64,000 nucleotides of DNA from Fragilaria crotonensis (Eukaryota > Bacillariophyta > Fragilariophyceae > Fragilariales > Fragilariaceae). The notes below the pieces were generated by a model, which searched no databases, was not told the DNA's origin, and was given only the letters and a program-made list of their open reading frames with translations. This document shows positions 26,414-59,234 of this stretch, piece by piece. Position 1 is the stretch's first letter. Each line of letters opens with the position of its first letter. Position numbers and translations under genes: made by a program. The stretch is from positions 1-64,000 of the forward strand of contig JAKSYS010000266.1 in the NCBI GenBank assembly GCA_022925895.1. Direction: 5' to 3'.

Positions 26414-26430
26414 TACTGCTATCATATATA
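26414..26430 (+). repeat. Target-site duplication (left) of the 472-bp LINE fragment
   Basis: TACTGCTATCATATATA, repeated exactly at 26903-26919. Both copies encode the same IYDSS of the transposase on the minus strand, showing the original uninterrupted coding site. Confidence 0.9.
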
Positions 26431-30167: not shown

Positions 30168-30311
30168 TTTTGATTAGTAGATTTTGGTCTGCAAAGGAAG
30201 ACACAAATCAAAGTTGTGAGACAATAGCAAATGCTAGCTACTAGGCGACTTGAAAAGGAAGCGGTGGCATCGCTTGTGGCCACCGGCAGGAGCTATATTT
30301 AAAAGTTGTTT

Positions 30312-32548: not shown

Positions 32549-33534
32549 AAGTGTGTGGTTTCCACATTTCCGCCACACCCTGGTACTGAACCTGCCAGCT
32601 CATTTTAAGGTGGGGTCTCTTAAGTGACAATATCACTCATGGATAAACACAGCTATCTTTCTCCTTAATCAGGTTTATTTCGGGGATATTGTTCATAATG
32701 CCCTCTTGGTCACATGCCTGACAATGCTCGTCGGAGCCAGTATTTTGCGTCATCATGACATCACAATCCTCCTCGTTACCTCTTGCCGTAGTACTACAAG
32801 TACCTGGTACTGTATTATTGTAATACGACAGTACGGTTGTTATAAGCCTGCAGTAATTTGCGAGATACAGGTATGACGGTATGACGCTAACAACGTGTTC
32901 GTGTACTTGAGTGTACCTGGAATTAGACGCAGACTGGTACTGTGCGGTTGATATCGCTTGTGACCAATGCCCCAATGTGCCTGAGTTGCCATACACTACT
33001 GTAGTCTACTACTGCGACTATGCAAACAAGATGTTTCTTCTTCGTTTTAATGTGGGAATTGGTTAACGGGATTGATACGTCGATTGAATTGTATGCATGA
33101 ATCCATTCTTTACATATAAATATGCAGTCGAATACATCCCATGTTTCTGGGACTGGATCTTATCCAAAAATGCGTCTACGTCTTGCTATGAGCTATGAGG
33201 TCGTAAATGCCCGTAAAATGCACATGATTATGTTCCATTTCGTCCACATCATGTGTTCATTGTCTTCGTTCGATATACGTTAACCTCATTTCTTATCGTT
33301 GATGAAGATTGCTAAACTTCTATTTTGAAGACTTTCTGGGATTGAAGTTTAAATGGGTGCTGCGACACATGAACACACATTCATATGCATTCATACGTAC
33401 TGCGATTTGTGCAACTCGCCGACATCATTTTGTTTCTCTTTTGGCGCACGCAAATCAAATCGTCATTTTTCTTCGGCTTCCGTGTTCTGACGTGAGAGTA
33501 TTGGAGTAGTGGTGAGAGGACGTAACAGCATTCG
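32549..33534. promoter_or_regulatory. Intergenic region between RING gene and ATPase with a further module pair
   Basis: This shared upstream region of two divergent genes contains a diverged module A (GGGAATTGGTTAACGGGATT, about 33055), module B (TTTCTGGGACTGGATC then TTATCCAAAAATGCG, 33144-33175) and a partial A-like string (TTTCTGGGATTGAAG, about 33334). A GTACCTGGTACTG-rich palindromic tract lies near 32800-32840. No coding region is apparent. The ATPase start lies at 33535. Confidence 0.45.
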
Positions 33535-36500
33535 ATGAAAGCGGATAACTTGAAGGATGATGCCCATGGGGGCCCCACCACCCCCTCGTGGCACGCCATG
33601 AGTGTGGAGCAGGTGGTTTCTAATCTTGGTCTCAGCACGTCTGTGATAAAGCAGGGTTTGACAAATGCCGAGGCCAAGGAGCGGCTCGAGAAGTTCGGTC
33701 CGAACAAGATGACTGAGGCTGTGAAGAAGACTCTCTGCCAGCGTATCTACGATCAGGTTGCCAACGTGTTGGTGTTCATCCTCGTTGTCGTTGCAATCGT
33801 CTCCGCTGTTCGTGCCGCTACGTCTACTGACTCCAACACAATCGTCACTAACGCGATCCAGGTTGGTCTCATCGTCGGCGTCATTGTCGTCAACACCATC
33901 ATCGGTATTGTCCAGGAAGGTTCTGCTGAGGCTGCTGCTGAGGCTTTGAGGAATATGCTTTCTGCTGACGCCCTCGTTATGCGAGACGGAAAGGAAGTTC
34001 AGATTCCTAGTGTAGACCTAGTTCCTGGCGATCATGTGATTATCGGGACTGGCGACAAGGTCCCGGCTGATCTGCGTATGTTTATGGTCTCCAATGTCGC
34101 ATGCGGAGAAGCTGCGCTGACTGGAGAGTCTGTACCGATTGACAAGACAGTTGAAGCGATAGCGGTTGCGGGCAACCCAGAGTCCACCCCGCTCGGTGAT
34201 CGTCACAATATGGCATTCAGTGCCACGCTTGTCGCCCAAGGTCGGGGTGCGGGTATCGCCATTGCTACGGGTGACGATACCCAAATCGGTACTATCAACG
34301 CCCTCGTCAGTACTGTTGAGAAGAAGAAGACGAACGTTTTGGAGCAGATTGACTACATTTCCAAGTGGTTGGCCTTCTTCATCCTGCTCTCCACTCTTGC
34401 TACCTTCCTTATTGCCTTCTTGAAGACTGGACTTCCCGCTATTGATGCCCTTTCTATTGCACTGGTTTGCGCTGTTGGTATGATCCCTGAAGGCCTCGAG
34501 GCCATTGTCACCATGACGTACGCTTGGGCTGTTTCCAACATGGCAAAGAAAAATGCCATCATTCGGGCTCTTCCAGCGGTTGAGACACTCGGTAGTGTCA
34601 CAGTCATTTGCTCTGATAAGACTGGGACCTTGACCCAAAACAAGATGTCTGTCGTCGCGTTTGTCACCTCCAACGCGCACTATCGTGTTGATGTCAACGC
34701 CAAAGATCGTTCACCGGCCAGTTTCGTTCGCGACGATTCATATTTGTCTGTTCGCGCTGGGCATCAGGCCGATGCTAATCTCCAAGCAGTTATTAAAGAT
34801 GGTCCCAACACAGCCATCCCTCGTCGTGGGAAGCTCGCGGCTTCTAACCACTACGCCATAACTAGTCTTGAGAAGCCACCTCCTTCGATGCACAATCCAG
34901 CCTCGGATGACGGCGTCGACGGCATACCTGTCGCAAATGGAGCTTCTCCAGACCTCCAATTCATCAAGTCAGCTCTTGCTGGCGGAGTACTCTGCTCGCG
35001 ATGTGTCCTAGGTGTTGATGGAACACGCGACGGTGAGATTGGAAACCCCACTGAGATTTCTATTCTACGCGCCGCCTACAATGCGGGTGTTGACGTTGAC
35101 GGTTTGAAGGAGAAGGATCCAATCATCGCCGAGGTTCCGTTTAGTTCGTCATATAAATTTATGTCGACCATACACGAACCCATGTCTGAAATAGACGGCG
35201 AGGGATTAGACGGTCACTACATTGTCCACGTGAAGGGTGCCCCAGATCGGATGCTTGCTCTCTGCAATACGCAGGCCAAAGCTGGAAAGATTGGCGAAAC
35301 TGAGCCAATCAGAAGAAACTATTGGACGGAACAGATTGTCACTTTATCTTCCCATGGCCTTCGTGTTTTGGCTCTCACTCGTGCGGTCGTACGGAAGACG
35401 GACGTCAAGGCTGGGGAACAACTCGGCCCTGAGTTCGTCAACGGACGCCCCGTTGAGCAGTGGCTTACAATGGTTGGTCTTTGCGCCATTCAAGACCCTC
35501 CTCGCCCTGAGTGTATCGACGCCATCGCCACTGCTCACAAAGCTGGAGTTCGGGTTGCTATGATTACCGGTGACCATAAGGATACCGCCATCGCCATCGG
35601 CACTACCCTTGGTTTGGTCGACGAGGAATACCCTAGTGGTATCACTGGTCCTGAGCTCGACGCGATGAGTGAAGATCAATTGAAGGAGGCTGTCATGACG
35701 TATAATGTATTTGCTCGTTCGTCACCTGAAAACAAGCTTCAAATTGTGAAGGCCCTTCAAGCACAACAGCAAGTCGCATCAATGACAGGTGATGGTGTAA
35801 ATGATGCGCCATCCTTGAAGCAGGCCGATATGGGTGTTGCCATGGGATTAGAAGGGACTGACGTAGCTCGCGAGGCGTCGGATATGATCCTTGCCGATGA
35901 CAATTTTGCTACCATCGTTGTTGGTAAGACAGTCTGTATGATACTTGTTGCGTGGCTGTCACTCGCTAAATCCTAACGCGCCATTGTCGTCGTGCAGCGG
36001 TTCGTGAGGGTCGAGTTGTTTGGGATAACCTTCGGAAGGTTCTTCTTGTGAATACTCCCATCAATAACGCGCAGGGAATGTCCGTATTGTTCGGTTTGGC
36101 CTTCGGTCTTAAACAGACTCCCCTTACTTCCATCCAGGTCTTATTCTCCAACTTGATTTGTGCCGTGACCCTCGGATTTGTGTGCGCCATCGGTAAGTTT
36201 CTGATTACAGCTCTATATTGTTATGCGCTTCGTCGGTTACGATTTCATGTGGAACTGATATCAATGCCATCTCCACAGAACCTGCCGAGGATGGTATCAT
36301 GGACATGCCACCCCGAAAAGTCGGAAAACGCTTGATTGGGCGTTTCTTGTTTCTTCGAATCATGCTTGGAACTTTTATTTTGATTATGGTCGTCATTGGA
36401 TCCACATTCTGGGCTAAAGACAGCGGATATGACCTTGAACATCAGAGATCCGTTGCGTTCAATGTTCTTGATTTTGGAGCTATCTCCATTTGTTTGTCAG

Positions 36501-40791: not shown

Positions 40792-42497
40792 TTAATAGTA
40801 GACAACCCGTTTGTTGTGACTCCCAGAGAATGCTGCTTGTGCTCGGTGACATTGTTGGTATGTAATAATCTTGTACATGCTCTTCGTATAGCGAACGGTT
40901 TCAATAAACTTCTGTAAGTTGCCGCCTGACATGATCACGCCTCGAGGCTCCCGCCCGGGAACGTTCGTCGTGACCCATCCAAAAGTACTCATTGTACGAT
41001 CAAGCCCCCCGTCTGATGCAATGTATAGTCTCTCGCGTGATCGAAAGGCGCGCCAGACTTGTAAATTGTCCGCTACGTGTTCGACATCCGAAACCATCCT
41101 CCGTTATGTCAGTGGTGGTAATGTTTTCAAGTACACAAATAGCCTGAGATTTGTGCCATTCCCGGGGTCTTGAATAGAAGAAGAAGTTTCCTGGAACATC
41201 GAGCGGATATTGCCTTGGAATTGGTGTTCTGGCGGCTGCTTCCAGACTGGAACGTATCGTAAGTACGAAGATGAGACGTATCTTTTCCAAAGACGGCGTT
41301 GTGAGGATGACGGTGGTGCCTGATGTGGCCATCGCATTCGCTCTGTCCATTCTTGCGGAGGTTAACCATCTAGATACTACCTATGGTTTATGAGATTGGG
41401 TTGAACGGTGTCAATCATGTTACCTGAGGGTTGTATACTTTTTGAACTAGTACATGATGGATGCCCCGCTGCTGGCTAGGTGTGGATCAATTTAAGTGCT
41501 CATGTTGTATAAATGAATTGGTCCATCGGCCCTGCCTTACTTATACTTGGTTGTTCGGTCAGTGTGACCGACAGATTGTGTTTCGACAAACACTCCCGTA
41601 GCGAAAGAAGCCAAGAGGAAGTCAAATACGGAATCGCCTTATTGGGATGTTCAAGCAAATACTTGCCGATTCCAGCTTGTTCTGGTTGGAGATATTGGAG
41701 ATTCAGGAGAAAAAGAAGTTGTCCTGCTGCCGATTTTGAAAAGACAGCATTTCTTAAGAATTTCAAAGATTCAATACCGAGCTCACTATGCAAGTCTTTT
41801 AAGTCCAGACCGCCGAGTTCCGCAGGACCGTATCGTATTGAGGTTGTTGGTAAAGTACTGCACACGTTCATTTTTTTGAGGAGTGACGCGAGTACACGAG
41901 TCTGGATTGTTGAATGTTCTTCTTCAGATGCCGAAAGTGCTGCCAACCCATACCGCACGGTCGGGACATAAATTGATCGATGGAAAATGCGAGCATCAAT
42001 TGCCTTTATACAAAGGGAATGAAGGCGGGCCGCAAACGAGTCGGCTTTAGTTTTGTGTAATTGTATATGATCCGGGAAGCTGCCAGAAGGAGACAATTGA
42101 ACCACGCCAAGAACTTGCGAACATGTTTCCAATTGCATTTGCGGAATTGCTTGTTGTCGCGGAGAGCCAAAAGCATTCTTGCCTATGGTAATATTTGGAT
42201 CTTCGGAACCAATCGGGCGAGGGAATGGCCGACCATTCTTCTTCCACTCCCAGTTAACGATGTAGTACCAGCTGCAGTTCTTACAATTCAGAGAACCGCC
42301 TGAAAGAGAAAGGATGTGCTCCCATGTCTGAGCGATACGCTGCAGGTTCTCGATCATCATGTCCTCCAATGCAAAATCTGAGGAGTAGGGGTCGGTAAAC
42401 CCAGCTGATGTATCCTCAACAACGTAGGCGTCTAGCAGTCTAATGTGTTTCATTCTTGTACCGTTCGGAGACTCGAATGAAATTCGCTCTTGTGTTA
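40792..42497 (-). pseudogene. LINE-A copy 2, downstream part (RT motif C, thumb, start of RNase H)
   Basis: The minus-strand frame 42510-41500 continues the LINE-A RT: ERISFESPNGTRMKHIRLL, DAYVVEDTSAGF (motif C with one inserted residue, so the VDD is broken), ILSLSGGSLNCKNCSWY and FHRSIYVPTVRYGLAALSAS. All align by eye with copy 1 at 16.25-17.1 kb. Further pieces (RWPHQAPPSSSQRRLWKR near 41330; VSDVEHVADNLQVWRAFRSR then YIASDGG near 41090-41020) match 17.3-17.7 kb of copy 1. Similarity fades near 40.9 kb, so the RNase H remainder and the 3' end are lost. Its upstream part lies beyond the LINE-B insertion at 46031-46445. Confidence 0.85.
42479..42497 (+). repeat. Target-site duplication (left) of LINE-B
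   Basis: GAAATTCGCTCTTGTGTTA, repeated exactly at 46012-46030. Both copies encode the TQERIS residues of LINE-A on the minus strand. Confidence 0.92.
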
Positions 42498-45400
42498 AAA
42501 AACCAAACATCTATTTTACGTGCTGCCGCTTCTTCTGGAATCCGGAAGGTTGACTCGCACGACTGAACATACCCCGTGTAGGAGCACGTCCAATATGATT
42601 TCCACCCTGCTACATGTCCGTTCGTGTCGATTGGAAGTACGACCGAATTGATCGCACTCCTGCTAAAGTCTTGTTCTTAACTCTCCGCGTGCTTTCTCTG
42701 AACACTGGGGTATTCACTGTCAACCAATTTTGAATTGCCCATGTCGGTCGTTGCAATTGGTCCTGAAGTTGTCAACTTAGGAGTTCCTGTACTCTGGGCT
42801 TGTAGTGTCGACGATTGTCATATGCCGCTCGCAATTCCCTCTCCACTTCTCGCCTAAGTGCCTGGTTTTGAGTTTCTGTGTCGCGTCCGTGCAATTCTTC
42901 GTTTCATAATTTCCACAACTTCATCCAATGTTTCCAAATGTGTGTAATCGACTGGATTTGCCAGCATTGTCCCGTCCGTTTGTCGTCTGTACCCCGTTGC
43001 CGTCGCTCCCTCGCGTAATAATCATCTTGGGTTCTACTCCACTCATTGCCGAATCTCCCGTTAATAATTTGTCTCCACCCGATTGAGTTCTGTTGGGATA
43101 GTATCACGTGGTGCACATCTCTCCGGTATTCGTTTGGGTTCAGGACCATGTCGTCGTCTTCGCTTTGCATCCATGCAGTGCGGATTTTATTAAATGCCGA
43201 AGAGGTCTATATGTGTCCATCTTCGCGTGGAACTCTTCAAGCGATTCTATGAATTTCTTGCGCCACGTTTCTCGGCTGTCAGATCGACATCGAATAATGT
43301 GATCTCTATCTTCTTTGAAGCATTGATGGCATCCTGGGCACTGCCGTTTTCCATTGTCCTGTCGGTTGGCGTGTTTCAAGGTTGGAAGACATTTGTGGAC
43401 CATCTTTGTTAAATGGATTCGCTGTTTGATATCTTTTCTCATCGCTTTACCGTGTGCGCCCCAATTGACCATGTCCATTGTGTTGTCGTCAAAGTTATTC
43501 TTGATCTGAATATATTTCTTTAGAGGACCGCTCGTGGCTCGTCGTCGAATGTCTGTTGCATATTTCGCCGTTTGTGTGCCTTCCGGATATATCAAGAATG
43601 CCCCTGTGTGCTGTGTCATATAGGCGTACGGTCGTGGTTGGCCGAACCTTTTCCTGAAACGTTCGTGCCATGTCGTCTGCATCTACGTTCAACTGGGCTA
43701 AAAGATCTAGAAGGCTGTATGCTCGATTAGCGTCTTGATGTCCTTTCACATATACCAGCCAACTTGACGTTTGGTAATTGGAGCAAAGTGTTTCGGATTT
43801 TGACTAAGAGGTCCCACTCGGGTATCAATGGATTGAGTGGTGCCACGTCGGGTTGCTTGTAGACTCATTGGCTCCTTTCTTGCTGCCGGACTATTGTCAT
43901 CGCCTCTCCCGAAGATTGTGTCGAGCATGCTTTGGCTGTCTGTTCCTATAATGCCTGTCCATGTGCCGTCCATCGCAGTGAATTCCGCCAGGCGAATTAA
44001 GAATCTCAAGATAGAAAGCATTCCGCTACACTCGGCCCTGTACGAATCCATGACATGCCCTCGCGATGGGCCCATGCCTGTTGCTGCATGTTCTCCCTCC
44101 ATGTTGCTCAGCGTCCAGCCAAATGCGCCTGCGTTTCCATACTTTTCTGATCCGTCGCTTCCTGCAACAACGAATGCTTCTTGTAGATCAAGACATATTG
44201 TATATGCGTCCGCAATTAGTTCGGTATGTTGCAAAAGATCAGCTTCCCATGCCTCGAGTGAGTGTACATAATCCGCGAATGTTGCGATTGTCGGTTGCCT
44301 TTGGGTGGGAATCATCGCAGTTTTGTGAGTGATTTTCCACCGGTCGTATCCCTCGTCTTCGGTTTCTACTGGGATAGCACCTGTCGGAAGGTCTTTCCCT
44401 CGAACTGTTCTCGACGTCTGTTGGTAACACTGAGCGTTTTCTCTTCTGCAATATGCAAACGTGCCGCCAGAAATCCGCACGTACATCGAGTCAGGTGTGG
44501 CATACGCGAAGTGTTCGAATCAACTTTCCCGATGTCCCCTAGTCCATTTGCCCAGTGGTTGTCGAAGCGTACCGTCATTGTGACTCCACAATGAAATTGC
44601 CTTCTTCCATAGTTTCCATACTGCATTATTCGGTCGTTCTTGGTGAACAACCTTTATCAACTTTGCCTCAACACTTAATAATGAACGTTCTCCGTTAAGT
44701 TTGGTGTTGTCGAGTCGATCTCCCATCGTGGTAGCGAGGTCAGCTATTGTTAGAACGCCGAGATACATCCAGCAGTAATTGAGCTGACGTATCTCGTTTG
44801 GGGCGAATTGTTTTGATGCCAGTATATGATCGATTATGTAAGTGTCGTGTTCTCTCTCTAAAGGTGCAACTCTGTTTTGATCCACTTGTATTCCTGCCTT
44901 GATGTGTGATAAATATTTACGCAATGATGACAGCCACGGTGATTCCAAATGCACCAAGTCCACATGAACGTTTTCCAGTATTGGTGTTGCTATTCCCGCG
45001 CAGTATTGCGCCCACGCCACTGCGCACCGAAGCAAGCGACCTGCTTGTGTTTGGCTCCGCCACCAGCAGTGGAAGAGAAATAATTGAATTTGCCCGATAC
45101 CTTGCTGATCGTATAGATGCCTGAAATTAGCTCCGCCGAGTTCGAGTGGGCCGAATAATATTTCGCGTTTGGTATTCCGATTGTATCCGCACTTGGCGTA
45201 TATCACAGCCATCGCCTTTCATTGGATGTTTGTTAACTGTGCTTCCGTAAAGTGTGAATTTGCTAACGGATAACCAATGCTTGGCAGGTAGCATGCATAA
45301 TAGTATGTCCAAGCCTCTTCTCTTGTCAAAGTACAGTTCCACATGAATTCTACAGACCCGTTGCTTTTCCGTTTCAGCTGTCTATACTGCTCTTTTTGGG

Positions 45401-46011
45401 TTCCAGCTGGTTCTTTGTAATGTCCCAGCAGTGCTTTATGTGCCTCGCACGGTGACAAATATTTGAGGAGTTTTCCATCGCCTGTTGTTGAGTCTATGAC
45501 GTGTGCCGTGAGAACCGGCAATCCTGCTCCTGTGAACTGCCATGCCATAACGTGATACGAGCATTTGGTCAATTCCAAAGCTCCGCCTGTTGTGCTCAGG
45601 AGATTCGACCATATTTGTGCGTTTCTGCCTTCGTAGTTGATGAAGTACCGATTGTCGTGAGTGTTCTGTTTCCTCCTGAACAAATGTATTGGTTTGACCG
45701 TTGGAGTTGTCGACAAAGCCGACCATTCCAAGCTCAACTTTCTCCGATTTGTCTGGGGAATAATACACTGCTTTGTCTGCTTGTTTGTCGTAGCAATCGT
45801 ATAAAACACTGCTGGATAGGAAGCACCAGATGACAGGCGAGTTCCCACTGCCTTGTCCAGTGCCATAGATGGGTTGCGTTTGGCAATGGCTGTATCCTTC
45901 TTCGTCCAAGCCTAGCTCCGTTCTGATGTGATACTTTGCTTGTACAACGTACTAGAAGCGTTTGTCGATGTAACTGTTGCAGGCACACCAAATGTGCGAC
46001 TTGATACCATG
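42498..46011 (-). mobile_element. 5'-truncated non-LTR retrotransposon LINE-B, inserted in LINE-A
   Basis: A 3.5-kb insertion with a perfect 19-bp target-site duplication. On the minus strand it starts abruptly inside the RT domain, shortly before motif B, and runs to a 3' end reading GTTTGGTTTTTT next to the duplication. Truncation at the 5' end is typical of incomplete reverse transcription. The family is distinct from LINE-A although domain order (RT, RNase H, CCHC-like knuckle) is the same. Confidence 0.88.
42904..45990 (-). pseudogene. LINE-B ORF2 fragment: RT motifs B-C, RNase H, zinc knuckle
   Basis: Frames shift several times. Motif B is YGTGQGSGNSPVIWCF (about 45860), and the motif C position reads GFVDNSNGQTNTF (about 45720), with Asn where the second catalytic Asp is expected. 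Next come a thumb-like LLSTTGGALELTKCSYHVM (about 45600) and LFGPLELGGANFRHLYD. RNase H follows: GSDGSEKYGNAGAFGWTL (Asp), SYRAECSGML (Glu), GTDSQSML (Asp; 44300-43920) and, in another frame, KGHQDANRA with LNVDADD (43750-43680). A CPGCHQCFKEDRDHIIRC knuckle lies at about 43350-43300 and a charged C-terminal tail runs to 42904. The disrupted frames and the altered RT site make it inactive. Confidence 0.8.
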
Positions 46012-46030
46012 GAAATTCGCTCTTGTGTTA
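46012..46030 (+). repeat. Target-site duplication (right) of LINE-B
   Basis: Exact copy of the 19 bp at 42479-42497. Confidence 0.92.
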
Positions 46031-46445
46031 GCTTTTCAAGGGTATTGAGAAGTACAACAACAAGCGACAGCCGTGTGAGTCAAGTGTTCATATACCCAGG
46101 ACATCCCGGCAGCATGTTATAATAGAATTGGTTTTTTTTGGGAGGTGCCACTGCCTTGCTTGACCTGTGCCAAAAAGAGCTTCATCCTCTGTCCCAGAAT
46201 ATTGTTGTATCGAAACTCCATGCATCGTCTTCACAGCATACCGCATAAATTTTAGTGCAGATGAATGTGTGCTAATAGCAGTTTCTGGCGTTCCGCAGCG
46301 TCGAGCAGCGAGCATACCGAGGACTATAATTTGATCGTAACAAGCAGATGTGTCGTTATCGAAACGCGCCGTATTCATTTTTAAAATCCGCGAGAGATCT
46401 GATGTAAGCTGTGCCAACATGATTGGATCTAGTACCACGGACATA
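46031..46445 (-). pseudogene. LINE-A copy 2, upstream part (RT motifs A-B)
   Basis: The minus strand encodes LDPIMLAQLTSDLSRILK, motif A ARFDNDTSACYDQI, LAARRCG and FMRYAVKTMHGVS, then motif B FGTGQ with a frameshift, and after it LSLVVVLLNTLEKL up to the LINE-B target site. This matches 15.88-16.24 kb of copy 1. Upstream of about 46445 similarity stops abruptly, so the copy is 5' truncated or broken by other DNA. Confidence 0.85.
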
Positions 46446-47486
46446 TTGTAAGTCGTGACAAATATGCAGCCAGTGACAAACAGACCCAACAACTTGCCAC
46501 TGGAATGGAGAAAAGCATAGAAGACCAATGGACAGAAGTATTCTTGGTCAGAAAGCAAACTAACCAAAAACGCAATTCCTCACTCTCCAAAGTTGAGGAA
46601 AACACCCCACAAGTTAACATCATCTTCAAATTCAATCTGCTGGTTAATGACACTCCAGCATGTACCAGTTTGAAACCAATGGCAAAGAACCAGGCCTCAT
46701 AAAGTCCTCAGGCGGACAAAGTGTTCATCAATTGTCACTGTGGTTGTCATCATTTGACTTGCTCTTTTTCTCCCTGCTAGTAAGGAGTTGGGCGGGGCAT
46801 TCGAGCACAACATGAATCCATGGCATCATATGTGCAGAGACTCTGACAAGCTCCTGCTCAGCAGGCTGATCAGGCCCCGTCTTCCAGTTTGGGTGAAAGC
46901 AGTCTCTCTCACACTGAGCAGCACACCATCCATCCTTGGAGGATATTGATTGCAGGTAAACCAATGATAACAAGAGTGAGACTACAGTATCTGCCTAGTG
47001 GGGTCATCCTGCAAGTCATCCCACAGAACAGGGCTAAAAATGCCTTGCCCATCAGGCTTGGTCCAAATAACTTAAAAAAATTACTGGACAGTATGCAACA
47101 GGATAGCTGAAAGCATTATTTTTATTAAGAAAATTACATGACGTGAGATATTCAAGATATTTGAACTCCGGGCGATGTCTTACTGGATTACTGAATGACC
47201 AAAGGCAATACGTGAAAGGGTCCGTATCATACTGTGATAGACATGAACAAAGAGAGCTTATCTGTTGATTATGATCTGACTATTCAACAAAGCAAGGATG
47301 TGTCACCAGCAATAAATGTAAAGGTTCTTTCTTTATTGAGGATTACTAAGTTATCCGTCTTACTATACTGTTAACAATTCTCACACGAAGCCCTATCAAC
47401 ACTCCTCCACCATCAAGACGTGGCACATCCATATGACAGAGGCACCACGTCTGACAGTCCGAAGCGGATAGGGATCAGGATGTCGT
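46446..47486. other. Unassigned DNA, probably transposon relic, and SIT2 downstream flank
   Basis: Minus-strand pieces such as CFHPNWKTGPDQPAEQELVR (about 46900) and, further on, PLVSNWYMLECH (about 46660) read like degraded protein, possibly a transposase, but I cannot name it. From about 47340 the sequence resembles the 3' flank of SIT1 (AACAATTCTCACA, then ATCAACAC and CAAGACGTG), diverged. Confidence 0.35.
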
Positions 47487-48512
47487 TTATGCCAACGTCT
47501 CTACATTACCATCACGGGTCCCATCGGAATCAGTGCCTTCCGCACCACCATTCGCAACAGTCAAAGACTTGACGAACTGCGCCACGCTAGGGTCTTTCTC
47601 CAACAATGCTTTCAAACTCTCAGGGGCATGGTCGATAAAGTTCGGGAGCTTGACAATGTGTCCAGGACCATATTCAAGGACCGTGTTGTCATCCTTCATG
47701 TTGAGGCCGGCACGCTCCTCGGCAGTTCCAATGTACTCCTCATCGCGTTTGAAGCCAGCAATGGCCTTGTGAACATCTGCAATAACCCATGCTCCCTGAC
47801 AAAGGCCAGTAGCCTCCAACAAAAGGCAAATGCGAAGCAGAATGTACGTGATGGGGGAGGACATGAATGTGATTGGGAAGCAGGAGGCCACAAGCTGCCA
47901 AGCGATGGAGCCAATAATCGTGGTAATCAAGGCGCCAAGAAGACCGGTATCGAAGAGCTTCTGGACGCCGTCAGAGACACCGAAGACGTTCGTTTCACCC
48001 GGGGCGATCTCAACACTTGTAACTCGGGCCACAAAGAACATGCAAGAAACCACACAGAGTTGTCTCCCAACCATGAATCCGGGCAAGTTGCGCGCGTCGC
48101 CGCTGAAGAGCATGTGAGCAGTCTTCCTGGCAAAAATGTTGGAACCGCGGTCCTTTGCGCAAATCTTGGCAGTCGCAAAGAAGGCAATCTGCATGGCCTC
48201 GAGCATGCCGACAACACACAACAGGAATATGAAGACGAACACAGCAGCAATCGGAGGAATACCGTCCCACACAGTTGTCTTGCCCTCAAACAAGGCAGTG
48301 AAGGTAACTGCCAAAGCGAATCCCAAAACTACGATCGAAAACAAGCATCGCAACCAGAAGAAGATGTTCATGATTGCCGATCGAGGAGGCTCCTTGGATA
48401 CCACAGGCTCTTTGGCCAAGTAGCACACGATCATCTGAAGAACATAGGATGCATGCAACAACCCTGTGAACTCGATGGTCATTGAAACCCAGAAGACAGC
48501 TGACATGAAGTA

Positions 48513-51500
48513 CAGCTGGTTTTCTGTTCTAAAATCCGGGCGCACGTCCCAGTATTAATTCTACGCTAGACCGATTTCACTGCCAATATGACGTCACGAG
48601 GGCGGGACTTTGTCGTGTTGGAAGCAAGGCTTCCACAATGAGATTTTCAAGCCGTCGTTTGCAACATTTCCATTCTAATCTATAGATTTACCTCCTGCAG
48701 TCACCTTCCTATGTAACTCAGTGAACCTACTGTTGGTGATAAATCTATAGATACAATGGTTGACAAAGGTAAATATGCTATTTTGACTGATGCCGTCATG
48801 CTACTTCGAACAGACATCACGTATGGTCCGAGATTGTCAAATTGCTGGCTTCCTGCATCAACTTGGGCTGAAGCTTTAGGGAGATTTGATGTCAATGCGT
48901 CCCTTGGCGTCATTGATGTAAGAAGGTTCAATACAGGGATGTCCAAGTCGGCTTCTTTCGGAGAATTGATGCACCGATTTGATGGATCAAACACAACAGG
49001 AGTGTTCAGAGTCACATACAAGAACACATTCTATTACTACTTCACAGAGAAATCAAGGCAGATACGGTACCCATGTCCACTTAACAGTGCATGGAACGAA
49101 AAAGTAATGGAAGCAGCCGCAAATGTGCTAGTCATTCCAAGCACAAGATCAAGACCCGCTCTCGACACAATGATAACTACACCTGTCAACACGGAGGCTA
49201 CAACGGGAGGAAGGATCGGAGACATTGTTGAGCAATCACCGAGCAAACGAGCAAGGATAGGAGATACTGGTGCGGCCGCTGTAATGATTGCTGCTGATGC
49301 TTCTAGCTCAAGTTACTGGCCATGTAGCCCAGAGGCATACCGAGTGTTCAAACCACCAAAGAAACATGGGACAACGAATTGCGAGGATGGGAATGATACT
49401 GATTTCGATTCTGAAACTCCAATGGAAGCACTTCAGAGAAGGATTGTACTGCTTCAAAGCGTTCATGAGGAAGAAAATAATTGGAGGAATGTTGTGCAAG
49501 GTAGAGATATCGACAACGTGTGTACCAAAGCTGAGATATGCGCTGTCAGGCAAAGGGCGACGTTTCTTTGTTATGCGTACCGATTGGCTCTTGCAAAAAT
49601 GAATGAATGGACGTGGCAAGACTGTTGCACTGAATCTTGTAAGGTATTGAACACTGTTGGTATGACGCAAGCAACCTTCTATAAAACCATCGCAAATTGG
49701 AACATTGTGTTCCGTAATTTTGAATGCTTCCCAAACCCAAACTTGTCTGTTCAGTGTGGAAACGACCTCTTCCTCGAGTTCTCGAAGTGTTTCCATGCGC
49801 AAAGGAGCAGATTGTTGCATTTGGCGTCGAGAACTTGTCACATCTTTCAATTGAAGCAGTCTATCAATTCGTTCATTCGTCTGTAATCCCAAGGCTGGCT
49901 GCGTTGTGGAAACGTGAATCGGTAGTAGACGAAGATACTGCAGAAACGTCAACATTGAGTACAAGTACTACAGCCATTAATCCTACTAGCAATCCTGTCG
50001 ATGTCGATCAAGATGAGGATGATATTGCGCTATTCCTTCGCGCACATAGACTTAAAAACATGAGCTTCACAACAGCATGGCGCTGGATGCGATTACTCGG
50101 ATTCAAGTATGATACGAGAAGGAAGAGCTTCTACGTCGATGGCCATGAACGTGAAGATGTTGTCGCACATCGAAATGCATTCTGCAAGAACTACCTTACC
50201 GTGCTTGAGCCACGTTGTCGGCGTTGGATTCAGCTTCCACTCAGTGAAGCTGCTACGATCAAGACCTTAGACACAGATTTCGGACATCATTACTATGATA
50301 TTATATCTGATGAGACTCGGGTTGAGTTTCACGTTGACTATTGGAAGAATTGCATATCAAGAATCAAAAGGGAGAAGAGGCAGCGCGAGATGTTGAAGCA
50401 AAAACAAGCATACGAGTGTCATCATCAGTCAGGCCCTTGATGATTATTGGTCAAGATGAGTCTGTCTTCGCGCAGTATCTACTGTCCTCCAAACAATGGG
50501 TTGGGCCAAAGGACAAGTGCCACTTCTGCCCAAGTCGGAGGGCGATGGGTATATGCTTTCTGCGTTCGTGTCACGCGAATTCGGCTTTGGCAGGCAGATG
50601 ACAGAGGATGAGTTACAAAGAGTGAATATGGCAAGGCAAACAGCAGCTCTCGGCGGTGGAAATTACCTCGATACAACAGCTGCGATGGAAATCTTGGGAA
50701 CAACGAGGAAGCCGATTTTGTTGGAATCCCCCTTCGTAAAATACTTGTTCATCGGAATCAATAATCAGGGTTATTGGAATTCATACCACATGAGTCTTCA
50801 GCTTGAGGATGTGGTTGATTGCCTACGAATCCTATATCCAAGCTTCGATTTTGTATTTTTGTTCGATCATTCTCAGGGACACGCTCGCAAACGTGATGGT
50901 GCACTCAGTGCGATCAACATGCAAAAGAACTTTGGAGGATCAAAACAGCAGATGAGAGACACAGTCATAATGTCACAAGAGGGTTATCTGGGCACACACT
51001 CACCAACCCTGGGCATCGGAGACACACAGTCAATGGTATTCAATACTGACGACTGTGGCCCATGGTATTTGACACCAGAGCAACGTGACTTACAACGTCA
51101 TGATCGAATAATGGGAAAAGAAGCAAGCCAATTGAAAACAAAGAAGACCCTTCTTGAAGAGCTCAACGAAAAGGGTGTGACGCTCCAACAAAAACGCGGG
51201 TACACTAAAGCCGAACTTCAGGAATTGGCAAGAAACAATTCAATCGAAACTCACAAAGAAGTCGACAAAATCCTATCTGGATGGGAAGGAAAATCTAAAG
51301 GCATGCTACAAGTTCTGTGGGAAAGAGGACTGATTGATCCAAGTGAGTTAGATAAATACACTGTCGACGGAAAGAAAGACACAATTTCAGGGAAGATTGA
51401 CTTACGGTATTCCCTACGCCATCTCATCGCAGAGTGTGCTGATTTCAAGGATGAGGAAACGGCACTTCAGTACCTTGGATCTCAGCTGGGCATCACGGTA

Positions 51501-52077
51501 CTTCTAACACCAAAGTTCCATGCCGAATTAGCAGGGAAGGCATTGAATTTTGCTGGGGTCACGCAAAGGCTTTCTACCGACGGGTTCCTGTATCTCAAAA
51601 GAGGGACGAGAGAATTTCAAACAACTTGTGAGAGATTCAACGTGTTCAATCAAGGAGTTGACCAAAGAAAGGATGGGAAAGTTTGCTTCGAGAGCACGCG
51701 CATATATTTGTACTTACCATCATCTTTTGAGAGTCAGCAGAGAATGAGGCAGCAAGGTCGTACCCACAACTTCATCGCCACAAGTATAACAGAAGATCAA
51801 GGACTTCTGTACTCCGAAATCCAACGCCTGATGAAATTGTTCAAGTCTCACAGGTGTGCATTGGACTTCGATCGTGGCTTCGTCAACAGTGCACTCAAAG
51901 AAGCAAAGACAAGAAACGAGGAGGACGAGGTGTGATCATCATGTCGACAGAGATGGATTTTTATGGTCGCAGGAGACAGCTGCTACTAAAACTTGATAAA
52001 GGATATGGAAATAATATGCGTGCATGGTACGAATTGTACACAACCTACGTTCGGACGCTTCAACGAAAAACCAGCTG
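48513..52077 (+). mobile_element. Tc1/mariner-IS630-type DNA transposon inside SIT2, TA target duplication
   Basis: Comparison with SIT1 defines the ends exactly: SIT1 has GAAGTAGTTG where SIT2 has GAAGTA, the element, then TAGTTG. The target duplication is the dinucleotide TA. The terminal inverted repeats are imperfect: the left end begins CAGCTGGTTTTCTGTT and the right end, read inward on the other strand, begins CAGCTGGTTTTTCGTT; after the shared 11 bp they match only in part. TA duplication plus a DDE transposase of the VDGHERxDVV type supports the Tc1/mariner superfamily. Transposase reads opposite to SIT2. Confidence 0.92.
48756..51935 (+). pseudogene. Transposase gene of the SIT2 insertion, multiple frameshifts
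   Basis: The first frame (48756-49886, ATG start) encodes an accessory N-terminal part including ALQRRIVLLQSVHEEENN and RATFLCYAYRLALAKMN, matching the same part of the element at 24-28 kb. Coding then switches frame near 49740, 50335 and 50500 and transiently between about 51540 and 51720. Motifs: MSFTTAWRWMRLLGFKYD and VDGHEREDVV (HTH region, about 50060-50160), first Asp IGQDESVF (about 50455), second Asp FLFDHSQGHARK (about 50865), and third acid EGIEFCWGHAK, present only in the out-of-frame stretch near 51545. The C terminus (LMKLFKSHRCALDFDRGFV) is again in frame. At least five lesions mean the copy cannot make transposase as it stands. Confidence 0.8.
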
Positions 52078-52786
52078 TAGTTGTTGATGTAGTCAAGCAT
52101 GCAGAGCGAAGCGTTAACCTGGGAGTTGAGTTGTCCAACCATGCAGGTAAAGAGGATCATTGCCAGACCACTACCCAAGAAGATAGTGATGATCCATTCG
52201 GGAAGTCCCCAGAGTGCCGCACCCTTGGTGGGACCGCCAGCCATGTTGACAGCAAACACAGTCAAAACAACCAGGAATTGACGACCGAGAAGGTAGCGGT
52301 CAAGGTTGTCGCCAGTGAAGCAGAACTTGCAGATGGCGTGAGTTTTCTTGTGCGAGACCTTGTAGAGTTCTGGGTTGACCGGCGCGAGACCAACGAGAGA
52401 AGCTTGACCTCCTTCGACCATGGTGAGCCAAATGATAGCACCCCAAATGACAACAAAGGCGAGGATAGGACTGACTTCCGAAGAGATCTTGGTCTGGCCG
52501 GTGAAGATCAGGCCCATGACCATGGCAATCGAGAAGATGAGAAGTCCAATGGAGTAAATGCTCTTGAACAAGGTGACATTGTCAGAAATATCTGGAAGGG
52601 GGGTTTCGATTGCCATTTTTGGTTAGTAGATTCTGCTCTGCAATGGAAGACACCAGGTCGAAATTGTGAGACGAGAATTTGGTGTGGTGGTCCCTCGCAA
52701 AAAGGTGAACATTTGGCTATCATACGGCAAAAGAAAACGTGACGTCGCTTGCAAGCAACGGCAGAAGATGTATTCGATGTTGTTTG

Positions 52787-52890
52787 CATGTGTGAATTGC
52801 TTCCTGGGATTGGAATTTTGATTCGATCATACAGATATATGAAAAGATATTGCTCACGTTTGTGGGACTGGATCCTTTCCTAAAATGCGT
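52787..52890. promoter_or_regulatory. Paired upstream module A/B, SIT2 proximal copy
   Basis: Module A (GCATGTGTGAATTGCTT, then CCTGGGATTGGAA) begins 171 bp upstream of the SIT2 ATG, module B (TTTGTGGGACTGGATC, then CTTTCCTAAAATGCG) follows, 58 bp between TGGGA cores, the same spacing as in SIT1. The DNA between module and gene is diverged from SIT1. Confidence 0.5.
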
Positions 52891-55196
52891 TGCCACCTTG
52901 AGTTTAAGCTTGCTTGTATGTGTCCATTGTTTACTCTGGAACATCTGGTTGACCTTGGTTTTTATTCTGAGATAAAGATAGCTAAAAGTCAGTGTACCTT
53001 GCCTTGGTGGGATTAACCTTGCGCCAACGGCTCTGGGTACAGATGGTAATTGAATTCGGTGATATCGCTTGTGACCAACTGCGGATCAAAAATGTCGTCA
53101 CAAAACCAAGTTACATAATGTTTTTTGTTCGATATTGTTTTCATGTGTGAGTTGTTTAATGGGATTGAATCTATATACTTTTAACTTACATATTATAATT
53201 TTCGACGTGGAATGTGCGTTTTGTGGGACTGGCTCTTTTCCATAATGGACGGGTGACGAGTTCCAATTTTGAGTTTCTGCTGGTCAGTGATACTATGATG
53301 ATGTAGTCTATGCTCTAGACATGCCCAGTATTATTCCGAATCATCGTTTTCCTTTCATCTCGTGTCCGATGTTGCTTTATAGATGACACACGTTGATGTA
53401 TCATACTATCATACACATATATGTTTGGGACGAAATCTTTAGATGTGTGTGTTAAAAAAAACTGAGCCACCAAAGAACTTGCTGTTGGGTTGTCTGAGCA
53501 ATACTCACACTTGCCGACGAACCTTGGCACAGACGACGTCAGACTTCAAACACCTCAGACTATCAGACTGTAACGTGAGACGATAGTGCGATGATCTGTC
53601 CGTCACCCGTGGGTGCTAGTCTAGCCTCACATCACACAACAACCAGCCTGAGCCCATGTTACCCGTCCCGTCATGTTACAAGACTTGATACTTGATCACA
53701 CGCATCCTGTAACATCCTAACTCGGTTGACTCTCACATTAGAAGGAAGATCTCTTTCCCTTCATGCTTAAATCGCTTTCTCGCTGAATACTTTCCCTTCA
53801 TGGTGGGACCATGGATCCTCAGCCAATTCCAATAAAACGTGTCGGTTGAATGAGGTGGATGCTGACCTCTTGTGGTACTGCGAGTCTCGGACTCTTTGGT
53901 TCCAGAAGATTTTAAGCGCAATGGAACCTCTTGTTTCCCTCAAAATGTTCAGGTGTACATCCTGTTTTCGGGTAGCTTTATCTGTGTCACTGCACAGCTT
54001 CATTTCGTATTGACCAGAGCAGAATTCCCATCGTTTGCCAGCCAGCGTTTTTGTTCTCAGTTGCGACCCCTTCATTCTTGAATAATGATGTTCCTCACAT
54101 TGACGATTTGTCACCACCCAAGAAGATTCTTCTGATCGGTCACTATTCACGCGTCATTCGAATAAAGAAACTGAGGTATTAATGGCGACGTTGACTTCTG
54201 GGTGCTGCATCGAACCAACTCCATACGTCGTGAAGCAATATATACGACGTAGTACCAGCTATGCCTCAAAAGGAAAGGAGCCCATGGTGTGTCGTGCAAT
54301 ACAAAAAGCCATCTAATGCCGATAGGAACTCTCCTCTCTACTTGACTCAGTTGGGAGGTCTTGACATTTGAGAATATGATTGCGGTCGTCAATGTCGGTG
54401 CATGTTTGGGCAAAACAATGGTCCGGTGAACGCTGTAAATTTTTGTCAGCAAAAGGTCATTGTCGTGAACCCGTGTCCCACAGATAGTGGACGCACTTTG
54501 GCAACATTCGACCATGCCGAACCGTGTGCATCCCGATGAACGCTCTCTGACATTTTCCTTCGTCCAACCATTTTCGAGAGATTATGTCATGAATGTAAAT
54601 GATGGGGGACCGCTAGAGTTGCAGACCGAGTAAAGTGCAGAGACATGTTGAGCTGATAAGGTTCCATTTTGAAGCATGAGATCAGCTCAAATATCAGTGG
54701 GCGTCGGTCGTCTATGTTGCCTCGCTGTAATCTCGATGCCATGCTAACTGCGTCAACGTTCAGTTACGCGAGCGAGGTGAGGTTGTCATGCGCCGTGTAC
54801 ATGCTTATTGTTGTCCTGCTGTAACGCTTTGAATATCCTGGAAGTGCGGTCGTCTCAATGGCTCTTCAACGTATTTCAAAGTATGTCCGTTCATGTCTTG
54901 ACGAGGAAATACGTGTTGACTATCTTTCGACTGTTCGTAGCAGATGTTGCTCTTCAGGTCCGACGTGGCCAACAATTCGCATGCAAACCCAGATTAACTC
55001 ATTATGGCTGACGATATCCCCTGGCATCATTCTTGTGGGCGCTATATCAGGAAAAGATCAGCAACTATAGTACAAATATAATGTCAATGTCTCGTTATAT
55101 ATGGTAGATTAGAACATAAAATCTGAGGAAGGCGGCAACATCAGTTCATTGCCGGAGACAGCTGTTGTTCCAGTTCATCGATCACGTCATTCGTCT
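52891..55196. other. Long gene-free region with a second A/B module (53141-53247)
   Basis: A second pair, TCATGTGTGAGTTGTTTAAT with GGGATTGAA and GTTTTGTGGGACTGGCTC with TTTTCCATAATGG, lies about 525 bp upstream of the SIT2 start (64 bp between cores). Beyond it, 53250-55190 shows only short open frames on both strands with no motif; one minus-strand frame of 127 codons (54150-53767) is polar but unrecognised. The last part is the downstream flank of the SLC13 gene. Confidence 0.4.
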
Positions 55197-58100
55197 TCAA
55201 GCGTCAAATTCTTGGTGCTCAAGAGGCTTTTCTTCGGTCGTTTTGACAACATTTCCATTAATCTTGCTGAAACCATTGCCTTCATTCTTAAGAACACGTG
55301 TTTCTTCATTCTGTCCTGCCTCGTAACCTGGTTTCTTGTCCTTCTTAAAAATCGCATTTATAATCGCACCGTTGCTCAAGCGAATTGCAGAAACCACCAC
55401 GAAAAGGATTCCAGTAATAACCCAACTGACATACCACGTGTCACCGGTTGATACAATCGCAGTACCACTGATGAAAAGAATAAGCTGAAGAGGTCCACCA
55501 AACCTCAAAAAGTCAGCGTTCTTGTAGCCACCAGGAGCGCATACCATTAAGTTTGTCTGGTATCCAAAAGAGGTCATGTAATCGCTGGATGCGAGCATGA
55601 CTGTGATGGCCATTCTGAGACGATTTACACCAGTTTGATCCACAGCGTCCATAGCAATAGGATACATGAGTGCGGCGGCAGCGTTGTTGGTCAGAATACT
55701 GCTTAAAAGAGACGTTCCCAAGAAAATGGCTCCGTAGACTCCAGCGTCTACCAAACGAGTTGAGAAAAGAAGAGTTAGGAAACGAACACGACATGGTATA
55801 CTGGCGACTTCCAAAGATAAAGAACTCACCTCCAATATTCATCGAAGTGCCCACTCTCACGAAAAAGGTTGCCAAACCAGCTGCAACGCCTGAATTCACC
55901 ATCGCCGTACCAATTCCAAATGCAGAAGCCACAACGATGTAGAGATCCCATTGAAGACAGTCCCTGGCTTCCTGTTGGGTCACAATACCCAAGAGGACCA
56001 TACAGACACCGACAATAGCCGCAGTGATGAGTAGTTCCCTGATCTCAAGCCCGGCAACGACCAAACTTGTGATAATCAGCACAACGCTAAGAAGGAAGAA
56101 ACGGGGACGAGGCGGGGATGAGTTTTCGACCTCAGTCACGAGGGCAAACGTTTCATAGTTTCCTCTGTGCTGATTGACAAACATCGGCCCGGCCTGAATG
56201 AGCAGAGCATCGCCAGTTTGAAGCTTGACTTTGCCTGGATGCTCGTGGACACGATCGCCACTTCGCTGAATAGCAATGATAGCACCGCCGTATCGAGTAC
56301 GGAATTGTGACTCAGCTACGGTCTTACCAACCAAAGGCGATCCCTTGGCGACCACAGCTTGCACCAATCGACGATCCTGCAACACTGGAGTAGACTTCTC
56401 GATCTCCTCGCTTTCGTAGAAGACAAGCCCATGGACCGTTTGGAGGTCGGCAACAGATTCTCCACTTCCAGAAAACCAAAAGACATCACCAACACGCAAA
56501 GGCTCGTCAACCGTTAAGGCTTCAAAGCGAGATTCGCCGAGTTTTGGATTTCCCACAGGTCGATCAATACTGACAAGAACAGCTCCAGGCAACGAGTTGT
56601 ATCCCAATTGCTGCAGGGACTTATTCTCGAGGGGGGAGTTTGGTGGGACTACGAATGCAGTCAAGAAATCCCCTTTACTCACAGAATCTGAGCCGCCGTC
56701 AAAATGCCTGTCGTCCTTAAATTCAACCTGAAGGTCCTTCCAAACTGAAACGAGTCCCTGATCTTGTTCAAGGTCCGGATCTTCATTCCCATTGCGCGAA
56801 TCTGAGGTTCCCAAAGCTTTTCCAAACAGGGAAGACTTCGATCCTTTCTCAAGTTTGTCATAAAAGTCAGCTGGTGGTGAAATCAGCAAAGGAGAGCCTT
56901 CGAGTACTTGCAGTATCAACAGGTCGCCTACCTCAAGCGGTGCGTGCAATGTTACATTTTTCTCGTTCTTCTGCAGAGCAAGAACTGAAGCCTTGAATGT
57001 CTCGCGAAACGTGATGCCGAGGGGTTTCTTTCCAATGAGACTCGATGACTTCGGAACGTAAGCCCGAACAACCCGAGACCCGACCTGCTTTTTCAATGCG
57101 GGTAGTTCTGAATCACGAGACACGTAGCTCAAAGCAGACCACACCTCACCATACTCAGGAAGAGTAGAACCGAGGGACTCGGTGCGCCAAACAGAGATAG
57201 ACCTATCGTCAAACACCGCTGCCTCTGAATGACGAACCTTGAGACCCAATTCAAAGAGAGCGGAGGAAATCTCCATAAGCAGTCCAGGACGGTCGATACA
57301 ATCAACCCCAGCAATCAAAGCACCATCACTATGATTAACATCCTGAGTTACCACAACTCGCGCTGGTCTTGGTCCGGTGGCAACAGGACTACGACCATCG
57401 ATTTGATCTGAAAAACTGTTGACAATTTGAAGAAGCTTAGAGTCATTTGCGGATACAACTGACTCAAGTGTCGTTCCAATTTCATCGGGTGCTTCAGCTT
57501 CTGTCAGAGGGTCACCAGGTGTGATGATTTCAAGAGCATGCTTCTCGCAGAACTCGCTGAATCCGCTGACGGATCCAGCGAAATACAGCTCGTCGCCCGC
57601 GGAGACCACAAAGTCTTTGCTCACAGCATAAACCATGTTTCCTGTTGCAGCGCGTCGAACGTTGACAAGGTAAATTCCTCCAGAGTTACCTAAACCGGAT
57701 CTCCTCACTGTTCTACCAGCAGCAGGTGACCAGGGTGTCGCTCTAGCCCCGAGTAAGATTGTATCGCCTTCCGTGTTGACAGCCTTTCGTCCGAATGGCA
57801 GCAAGAATGGACTGAGGGCCATGATGTACGACAATCCAATAAGCAAGTTAGGAATGCCATAAAGCGCGATATCAAAAATGCCCATGTTGCCTTCAGGTGT
57901 GCCTGGGTAATCATCTGCTAAAAGGCCCGAAACCACAAGATTCGTTGACGTCCCCACAAGCGAACAAGTTCCTCCCAAAATCGTAGCGTATGATAGTGGG
58001 ATCAAGAGCTGCTGACGTGGCAATCCTGTGTTCTTGGCCCAACGAAGAGTGAGGGGAATCATGACGGCTACAATGGGCGTGTTGTTGAGAAACGTTGATA

Positions 58101-58482
58101 TGATTCCAATCGGAACCATCAATCGTAACTGTGCGCCAGCAATGGTTTTGGGCTTTCCCAATATCATGCCCATGTAGTAGTCAAGGGCCCCAGTGCGACT
58201 GATTCCTTCGGCAACAATAAACAAAACCATGACCGTCAAAATACCCGTGTTGGAAAATCCAGCAAGGGCTTCCTTGAGCGTGACAATCTCGGTAACCATG
58301 AATAAAATCAACGTAGTCGCCATGACCCAGTCAACTCCAATCCTGTCGGTACTGATGATAGCCAACATGATGACAATAGAGACCGACACAACCACGGTCT
58401 GCCACACAGGAGCCTTGGTCGCCATTCGGCGGACAACCTCCTCAAAAAAAGTCGTGCTCGACATCTCAGACGCTTCGACCAT
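55197..58482 (-). CDS. SLC13-type anion permease with RCK_C domains and an ACT-like domain
   Basis: Two exons (58482-55830 and 55747-55197) joined across an 82-bp GTGAGT..GTAG intron give 1067 residues. The N-terminal half-permease (about 25-235) has the SLC13/DASS signature FLNNTPIVAVMIP and the GTCSLVGTSTNLVV loop. The C-terminal half (about 800-1010) has LTNNAAAALMYP and SFGYQTNLMV. Between them lies a cytosolic region of over 500 residues with four RCK_C/TrkA-C-like repeats (about 255-325, 463-525, 605-680 and 705-770; each has a G/P-SPL-GK pattern and a GD-L-F/I-Q/A strand) and a segment at about 370-435 (GVDCIDRPGLLMEISSALFE) that reads as an ACT domain. The architecture resembles algal and cyanobacterial SLT/SAC1-like Na+/sulfate transporters; sulfate or a dicarboxylate is the likely substrate. 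RCK_C domains usually sense small ligands. The ACT-like insertion is unusual. The final 60 residues are a charged tail. Confidence 0.85.
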
Positions 58483-59234
58483 AACTATACCAGTGGTAGT
58501 AGTAAATGAAAGGTACTCGGAGAGCCTGGGGTAGTGAACCTTCGGAACTACAGCGAATTCGCCAAGTGAATTCTAACACCCGAGAGAACTTTTTATGCAC
58601 GAAGGGATTAGTTTTGAACTAATCTCATTTAAGTTGGCGCTTCGCGGAACCTTCTGTACGATCGCAGCACTTATGTACCACTTACCTACCTAGAGGCTAC
58701 GCTCCAGTATATTCTCTATATGCGTCAACGAGGAGGGTGGCCGTTTGGAATTGCATATAGGGATGGGGATGCGGCATTCCGAGTTCTCCAGTACACGGTC
58801 TTGTAGGGGATCTCTGTATTCTGAAGTACGTGAACATCATACCAGGTACAAGTAGACCTATGTCATACTCACACTGTCTTCTCTGGACACTCGACCAGTA
58901 TCACATACTCCGAGTACTCATTAGTAAGTGGTAATCATACAGTAGAATCTCTTGTAAAATTGTACGTAGAGTGCACGTCATGGTGCACGTCTGAATTTTT
59001 TCGTAAAACCTGGTACTAGTTCCATTGCTGCGGCACATGAAACATTTTTTGTATGTGTAAAGTGTCATAATCCTTCATGTGTTAATTGTTTTCTTTTTTG
59101 AATCAATATTTAGGCTCGATCGGATCGATTAGAGGACATGACGACATGACACATGCCACCAAATCTTATACTACTACTGTATTGTGTTTTGACATGTACA
59201 CAGCATTGGCATCTTTCTTGCATGTACTATGTAC
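58483..59234. other. Upstream region of the SLC13 gene; no other gene
   Basis: Probable promoter of the minus-strand SLC13 gene. It contains GTACTCGGAG and GTACTC-type strings and a weak A-module-like string near 59077 (TTCATGTGTTAATTGTTTTC). No coding sequence recognised. Confidence 0.4.

Follow-up and report, generated by a model that had tools for sequence, protein, structure and literature searches.

Very probably, a recent transposon burst in the genome of the freshwater diatom Fragilaria crotonensis broke one silicon transporter gene, SIT2, at codon 180 and spared its neighbour, SIT1. A 3.56 kb family of cut-and-paste DNA transposons would have multiplied recently in this diatom genome, and one copy would have landed in SIT2, at a TA within codon 180, and duplicated that dinucleotide. 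From then on SIT2 would no longer have been able to encode a full transporter, SIT1 staying intact. Both genes lie in the 64,000-nucleotide stretch of DNA that was analysed, called the window below.

SIT1 (28644 to 30167, minus strand) is an intact silicon transporter gene with an open frame, and was used as the empty-site reference for the interrupted SIT2 (52616 to 47487, minus strand), to which it is about 97.5% identical. Positions 28646-29630 of SIT1 align with 47528-48512 (97.7%), and positions 29628-30222 with 52077-52672 (97.3%). The 5′ part of SIT2 (52078 to 52616, minus strand, 97.3% DNA identity to SIT1) is open over 539 nt, from the ATG to the second base of codon 180, and the 3′ part (47487 to 48512, minus strand, 97.7%) ends at the stop codon and includes one copy of the duplicated TA. 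Against Pfam family PF03842 (Silic_transp, cut-off 26.8), the scores were 645.5 bits for SIT1 and 399.8 bits for the 3′ part of SIT2. The 5′ part was matched with the SIT1 protein, at 393.5 bits and 83% identity, over an aligned stretch made up partly of element-coded residues. In SIT1, CMLD occupies residues 172-175, and the GXQ motifs are EGGQ from 68, GRQ at 111, GRQ at 328 and GVQ at 361, the fourth place, from 284, reading EAMQ. A simple hydropathy scan gave hydrophobic stretches, without a clean count of the ten TM segments expected of SITs. Based on the Pfam match and the CMLD and GXQ motifs, SIT1 is assigned to the SIT family, with silicic acid transport as its predicted activity.

Over 505 codons, compared without indels, the two genes showed a Ks of 0.055 and a Ka of 0.009. 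The resulting Ka/Ks of 0.17 argues that SIT2 was under constraint earlier and that the insertion came late; a working transporter would formerly have been made by SIT2. Similarity in the 5′ flanks is about 73% over 200 bases, reaching 84% over the 56 bases preceding the ATG, and in the 3′ flanks about 70% over 100 bases. An alignment of five SIT 5′ flanks also revealed a conserved box upstream of SIT2 (52779 to 52797, minus strand), a candidate for a shared SIT promoter element. The possibility that the pair represents alleles of one gene misplaced in tandem was rejected, as the flank alignment is patchy and the upstream frames differ.

An earlier note, made from the letters of the window, had claimed an exact insertion with TA duplication in a Tyr codon at position 180, just past CMLD, in a gene still open everywhere else. 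The alignment with SIT1 confirmed each of these points. The insert spans 48513-52077 (3,565 bp) and is flanked by TA on the left (48511 to 48512) and on the right (52078 to 52079), where SIT1 has a single TA at the matching place. With 539 nt of coding sequence before it, the junction splits codon 180 (Tyr) between its second and third bases, just downstream of CMLD; apart from the insert, both halves are open. Read from its ATG, SIT2 now gives a truncated frame (51939 to 52616, minus strand) of 180 SIT residues, followed by 45 element-encoded residues and a stop, so that a full transporter is impossible. The insertion is therefore one that, judging from the reading frame, would abolish SIT2 function.

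The inserted unit recurs throughout the genome. Its ends read CAGCTGGTTTT...AAAACCAGCTG, with terminal inverted repeats exact over 11 bases on the left (48513 to 48523, plus strand), imperfect beyond, and on the right (52067 to 52077, minus strand). The genome holds 55 left ends, 53 of them exact with TA, and 52 right ends, all exact; the reversed-pattern control gave 0 in both cases. These ends pair into 48 complete copies, the end-pattern starts being 3,501-3,541 bases apart, with 11 single ends left over. No short derivatives retaining both ends were seen, the unpaired left and right ends lying on different contigs. Among the 39 copies that were fully read, 37 have TA on both sides, each within its own flanks. 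The 48 pairs, with their constant inverted ends and a target duplication that does not vary in length, mark the element as a DNA transposon of the cut-and-paste type bearing terminal inverted repeats, and because the unit recurs in this way with the same ends, a chance match of the insert is excluded.

The element belongs to a very young family. Only 27 substitutions were counted in 138,962 aligned bases of the 39 fully read copies, and 25 copies, the SIT2 copy included, have zero substitutions relative to the majority of the 39, a likeness which polishing may exaggerate. The absence of substitutions in the SIT2 copy and the low Ks between the two genes support the previous suggestion that the loss is recent. 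The target sites show a preference for a palindrome around GTAC, this core being found at 19 of 37 sites, whereas among the window's remaining 2,658 TA sites its share is 8.7%. When the SIT2 site was excluded from the target model, it came 5th among the 33 TA sites of the SIT1 coding region.

The SIT2 insertion may well be fixed, although the earlier note proposed that it may differ between alleles or strains. It is quite possible, if somewhat short of an even chance, that it is heterozygous or present in part of the culture only, with an intact SIT2 on the other haplotype, in which case the loss would be at most one of dosage. The window shows one haplotype, and redundant heterozygous contigs were removed in the pipeline of the published F. 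crotonensis SAG 28.96 assembly (PMC9476933), so that an intact SIT2 allele could exist; a very young, substitution-free element also fits an insertion that has not reached fixation. Against this, no second, uninterrupted SIT2-like copy was found on another of the contigs searched, which is weak evidence given the removal of heterozygous contigs. One candidate for an allelic contig with an empty site, C846, has similarity to just the gene next door, and SIT2 is absent from its first 1,810 bases. As for dosage, the effect expected by the earlier note holds more narrowly, because a search with the SIT1 protein detected five further SIT loci (on contigs C703, C349, C637, C97 and C771) plus two fragment loci, and SIT2 is not the sole backup.

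Residual SIT2 function, by splicing of the element from the message or by the two halves acting as separate proteins, is very improbable. Both halves are open and the upstream box is retained, but the obvious GT...AG in the inverted ends, identified by eye, would leave 11 bases and a shifted frame, the N-terminal frame enters the element and stops 45 residues on, and working half-transporters are an assumption that gained no support from the tests made here. Misjoining of a repeat into SIT2 during assembly is hardly credible: the element is a high-copy repeat, a class prone to misassembly, and the assembly has unpolished indels in its repeat copies, but in SIT2 the ends of the element are exact and TA stands on either side, as in 37 of the 39 copies, a false join is unlikely to hit both ends with a duplicated TA, and an element of 3.6 kb is shorter than the read N50, published as 17.8 kb (PMC9476933).

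Inside the transposon (48513 to 52077, plus strand as given by its transposase-like frames), three frames were distinguished, all on the plus strand: frame 1 (48717 to 49886, 389 aa, stop to stop), frame 2 (49724 to 50440, 238 aa, stop to stop) and frame 3 (50460 to 51935, 491 aa), which carries the second acidic motif and has transposase-like relatives among the frames of other parts of the genome. A long transposase frame without interruption is absent from all 39 copies. The longest frame, found in two copies, is 738 aa, compared to 1,072-1,084 aa in open relatives. Indel events among the 39 copies amounted to 237, of which 64 were outside homopolymers. The frame breaks, mostly homopolymer-length differences, are probably nanopore residue, and some of the indels outside homopolymers may be real. 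For annotators this is a caution, since frame breaks in a repeat may reflect sequencing residue rather than decay.

Candidate acidic motifs are kept across the aligned relatives, with about 226 residues from the second D to the candidate E; the enzyme mobilising the element would be a transposase of the DDE type. No match above the curated cut-off, and no DDE family, was found in Pfam for the frames scanned; NCBIfam (two relatives) and PDB sequences (up to E = 10) gave no match either, so that homology to the Tc1/mariner catalytic domain, such as Pfam DDE_3, was found in none of the three. A genome search with PF13358 (DDE_3) returned one stretch, at 21.2 bits versus a cut-off of 28.6; it was rejected as a relative, its frame having no significant match to the element family and appearing by eye copia integrase-like. 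PHROGs gave weak matches (best E 0.023). Relatives were confirmed neither in viral contigs (52 pattern matches) nor in prokaryote genomes (20 pattern matches). An AlphaFold model of a related transposase frame in the window, run with two other window rows, was uninformative (mean pLDDT 33.6).

Compared with the portion of the Tc1/mariner study available (PMC4495683), the element resembles Tc1/mariner, Submariner included, by its TA target duplication (37 of 39 copies) and short inverted ends, and its relatives have a similar acidic motif pattern (GQDES, FDHSQGHA, GIEFSWGHAK). It differs by the D-E spacing of about 226 residues, compared to 75-86 in Submariner and 27-31 in the classical clades, by a protein of about 1,080 aa, by having no Pfam DDE_3 match, and by a palindromic target preference extending past TA. 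Neighbouring, near-identical CMLD-bearing SIT copies are also found in another araphid diatom, Synedra ulna, whose SuSIT1 and SuSIT2, in the section of that report at hand, are identical, 5,239 bp apart, and have three CMLD units per protein (PMC6114903), whereas SIT1 and SIT2 are single-unit genes separated by about 17 kb, one of them interrupted. In Thalassiosirales, duplication and loss of SITs are described, in the accessible part of the study, as frequent and mostly species-specific, with relaxed selection on freshwater branches (PMC10700740); those losses were deduced by gene-tree reconciliation, whereas the SIT2 lesion is visible to the base. For F. crotonensis SAG 28.96, probably the same strain as here, the available text reports 48 mobilome genes up at high pH and proposes gene disruption as a possible consequence of such a 'genomic roulette'; it deals with transcripts, and names no insertion or disrupted gene (PMC9732472).

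The SIT2 lesion and the element family appear to be undescribed so far. Gene disruption by a transposon is itself a known kind of event. Silicon is required by diatoms for wall building, and repeated gain and loss are believed to adjust the number of SIT copies. Here a probable SIT loss is caught at base resolution and at a very early stage, and the near-identical element copies make ongoing transposition directly testable in a strain that is probably public, and probably the one in which stress-induced transposon transcription is reported in the part of that study available (PMC9732472). More tentatively, and we consider it unlikely, the element may still be mobile in the cultured strain, an active transposon that favours GTAC and belongs to a DDE lineage hitherto unrecognised, with the SIT2 insertion polymorphic among haplotypes or cells. 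If so, the culture would be a mix of silicon-transporter dosages, the element would be serviceable as an endogenous tool for diatom mutagenesis, and stress-induced transposition would have hit a silicon uptake gene needed for frustule building.

The silicon transporter gene SIT1 is intact (28644-30167, minus strand), and its paralogue SIT2, on the same strand, runs from an ATG at 52616 to a stop at 47487, with an insert of 3,565 bp at 48513-52077. DNA alignment gave 97.3-97.7% identity between the two over the coding region plus some 50 bases upstream of it, and the Pfam family PF03842 was matched by SIT1 and by the 3′ part of SIT2. A TA flanks the insert on either side, a single TA is found at the equivalent position of SIT1, and the break falls inside codon 180 (Tyr), 5 residues past the CMLD motif (residues 172-175). 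The reading proposed in the earlier note, of an element inserted with TA duplication in this Tyr codon just past CMLD, with SIT1 as the empty site, was thus borne out, as was its description of the other parts of SIT2 as open: the remainder of the gene is still open frame, though separated. We conclude that the insertion is genuine and is defined with single-base precision.

The element belongs to a family of near-identical copies. A DNA search of the genome (62.1 Mb, 881 contigs) returned at least 41 matches at 99-100% identity, an undercount because 40 of the 203 candidates were scored. The left end (31-base pattern, up to 2 mismatches) was found 55 times: 53 occurrences match exactly and have TA, another has a single mismatch, and the last, from an adjacent pair on contig C90, has two. 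The right end (21-base pattern, up to 1 mismatch) was found 52 times, always exact; the reversed left-end pattern and the right-end control pattern each had 0 occurrences in the genome. Left and right ends formed 48 complete pairs, with pattern starts 3,501-3,541 bases apart, and 11 ends were unpaired, 5 of which lie too near a contig start for the partner end to fit. All listed DNA-search matches spanning the whole element, 39 copies, were read at full length, and 37 had TA on both sides. The remaining two are the C90 neighbours (L016 and L049, 75504-79071 and 79066-82633), placed head to tail with a single CAGCTG in common. Their junction lacks a TA, and the arrangement may stem from the assembly or be a tandem or joined-end product. 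Contig C349 holds a full copy (10874-14445) about 19 kb from its own SIT locus (33346-34862).

The 37 target sites are strongly unlike other TA sites of the window (summed divergence 2.15 bits, whereas 500 random draws reached no more than 0.60). A GTAC core was present in 19 of them, versus 8.7% of 2,658 background sites, and the palindrome extends around it to approximately CAGG-TA-CCTG. Scored with a model from which it had been excluded, the SIT2 target (AGTAGT) was a moderate match, at the 96th percentile among window TA sites and 5th of the 33 TA sites in the SIT1 coding region. Gene interruption was checked in the 7 TA-flanked copies read with 1.5 kb of surrounding sequence to the left and right, the rest having 60-base flanks: the SIT2 copy was the only one of the 7 interrupting a recognisable gene, and another, L010, sits within a 214-aa open frame.

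Substitutions among the 39 copies were rare, 27 per 138,962 aligned bases, at 14 variable columns, and 25 copies, that in SIT2 included, had none. Length differences were far commoner (237 events, 173 in homopolymers of at least 3 bases and 64 outside them), and in the frame breaks inspected, homopolymer length varied between copies. As real divergence normally gives more substitutions than indels, most of these length differences probably represent nanopore errors that persisted where short reads could not polish the repeats. Polishing with reads common to several copies may also have wiped out true differences. Judged from these alignments, the element is very young, and since SIT1 and SIT2 differ by a Ks of 0.055 and a Ka of 0.009, its insertion is much more recent than their divergence. 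The absence of substitutions in the SIT2 copy, set against that Ks, agrees with the recent loss of SIT2 claimed earlier. Polarisation against the outgroup SIT loci of C703, C637 and C349 assigned 9 changes to the SIT2 branch (6 synonymous, 3 replacement) and 9 to the SIT1 branch (5 and 4), 11 of 29 being ambiguous; these branch changes give no sign of SIT2 decay before the insertion. Synonymous sites of the pair are about 95% identical, versus patches of 70-84% identity outside the coding region, a drop suggestive of gene conversion between SIT1 and SIT2.

Three relatives of the transposase-like protein, with open frames of 1,072-1,084 aa, were found elsewhere in the genome. The aligned relatives have in common the motifs GQDES, FLFDHSQGHA and PKFHAE followed by IE..W, which are similar to the DET, DNA and PIE motifs that PMC4495683 gives for Tc1/mariner transposases, but their second spacing, of about 226 residues, is unlike that group. 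No Pfam match exceeded the curated cut-off (the best below it, a SAP domain in one relative, scored 18.1 bits for a cut-off of 26.3), NCBIfam gave none for two relatives, and PDB sequences none up to E = 10. Because of this spacing and the lack of matches, we do not class the element as a Tc1/mariner member; its behaviour appears to be that of a cut-and-paste DDE transposon that targets TA. Motifs of this kind also occur in fungal transposases, which offers a lead. A related, divergent frame of 735 aa lies past the 3′ end of SIT1 (24285-26492, minus strand). The ends of the young element are absent around it, and on its two sides, at 23906-23925 and 26783-26802, lie the arms of an imperfect 20-base inverted pair.

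The genome search for silicon transporters gave 17 matches. The loci on C703 and C349 (L002 and L005) are 99.94% identical apart from indels, that on C637 is 92.5% identical to both, and all three are about 80% identical to SIT1, with 1-2 small indels apiece. Stops were listed within these matches by the search; codon-by-codon reading along SIT1 found none in the three loci. Since indels make up almost all the differences between C703 and C349, the breaks in their frames may be left over from sequencing. That the two carry different small indels points to nanopore errors that escaped polishing, to haplotypes that were not collapsed or to a duplication of recent date. PMC9476933 describes the genome of Fragilaria crotonensis SAG 28.96 (61.85 Mb, 879 contigs) as built from MinION R9.4.1 reads with Illumina polishing, redundant heterozygous contigs being taken out. 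A three-unit SIT frame lies on C97, a two-unit frame on C771, and fragments on C76 and C169. Given these further loci, the loss of SIT2 would alter the dosage of one SIT type and would not reduce the cell to a lone transporter gene.

Translated from its ATG, SIT2 gives 180 SIT residues and 45 element-derived residues before a stop, and a full transporter from the assembled gene is almost certainly impossible. Transcription would presumably persist. The box ATTCACACATGCAAACAAC, 163-181 bases upstream of the SIT2 ATG (52779-52797, minus strand), is found unchanged before the SIT loci of C703 and C349; the C637 version differs from it at one position and the SIT1 version at two. The stretch directly preceding the ATG is also conserved in these five 5′ flanks, which beyond it and the box align only in patches. 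The box is a candidate shared SIT promoter element.

Next to SIT2, a transporter-like gene (54446-58600) has a 93% identical second copy (C846:1811-6009), which has no adjoining SIT2. Long frames at 10207-19145 and 41500-46579, the latter set split into short frames, resemble non-LTR retrotransposons by eye, and a direct duplication of 179 bp (98.9% identity) occupies 22732-22910 and 22913-23091.

In the titles and abstract beginnings of the literature matches listed, we found neither a transposon-disrupted silicon transporter nor, for active diatom DNA transposons and F. crotonensis repeats, a description of this element. PMC10700740 reports frequent copy gain and loss in SIT families, and relaxed selection on them in freshwater branches. 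The disruption of SIT2 is an event of an ordinary type that affects an important gene, and its setting is unusually clean and open to testing.
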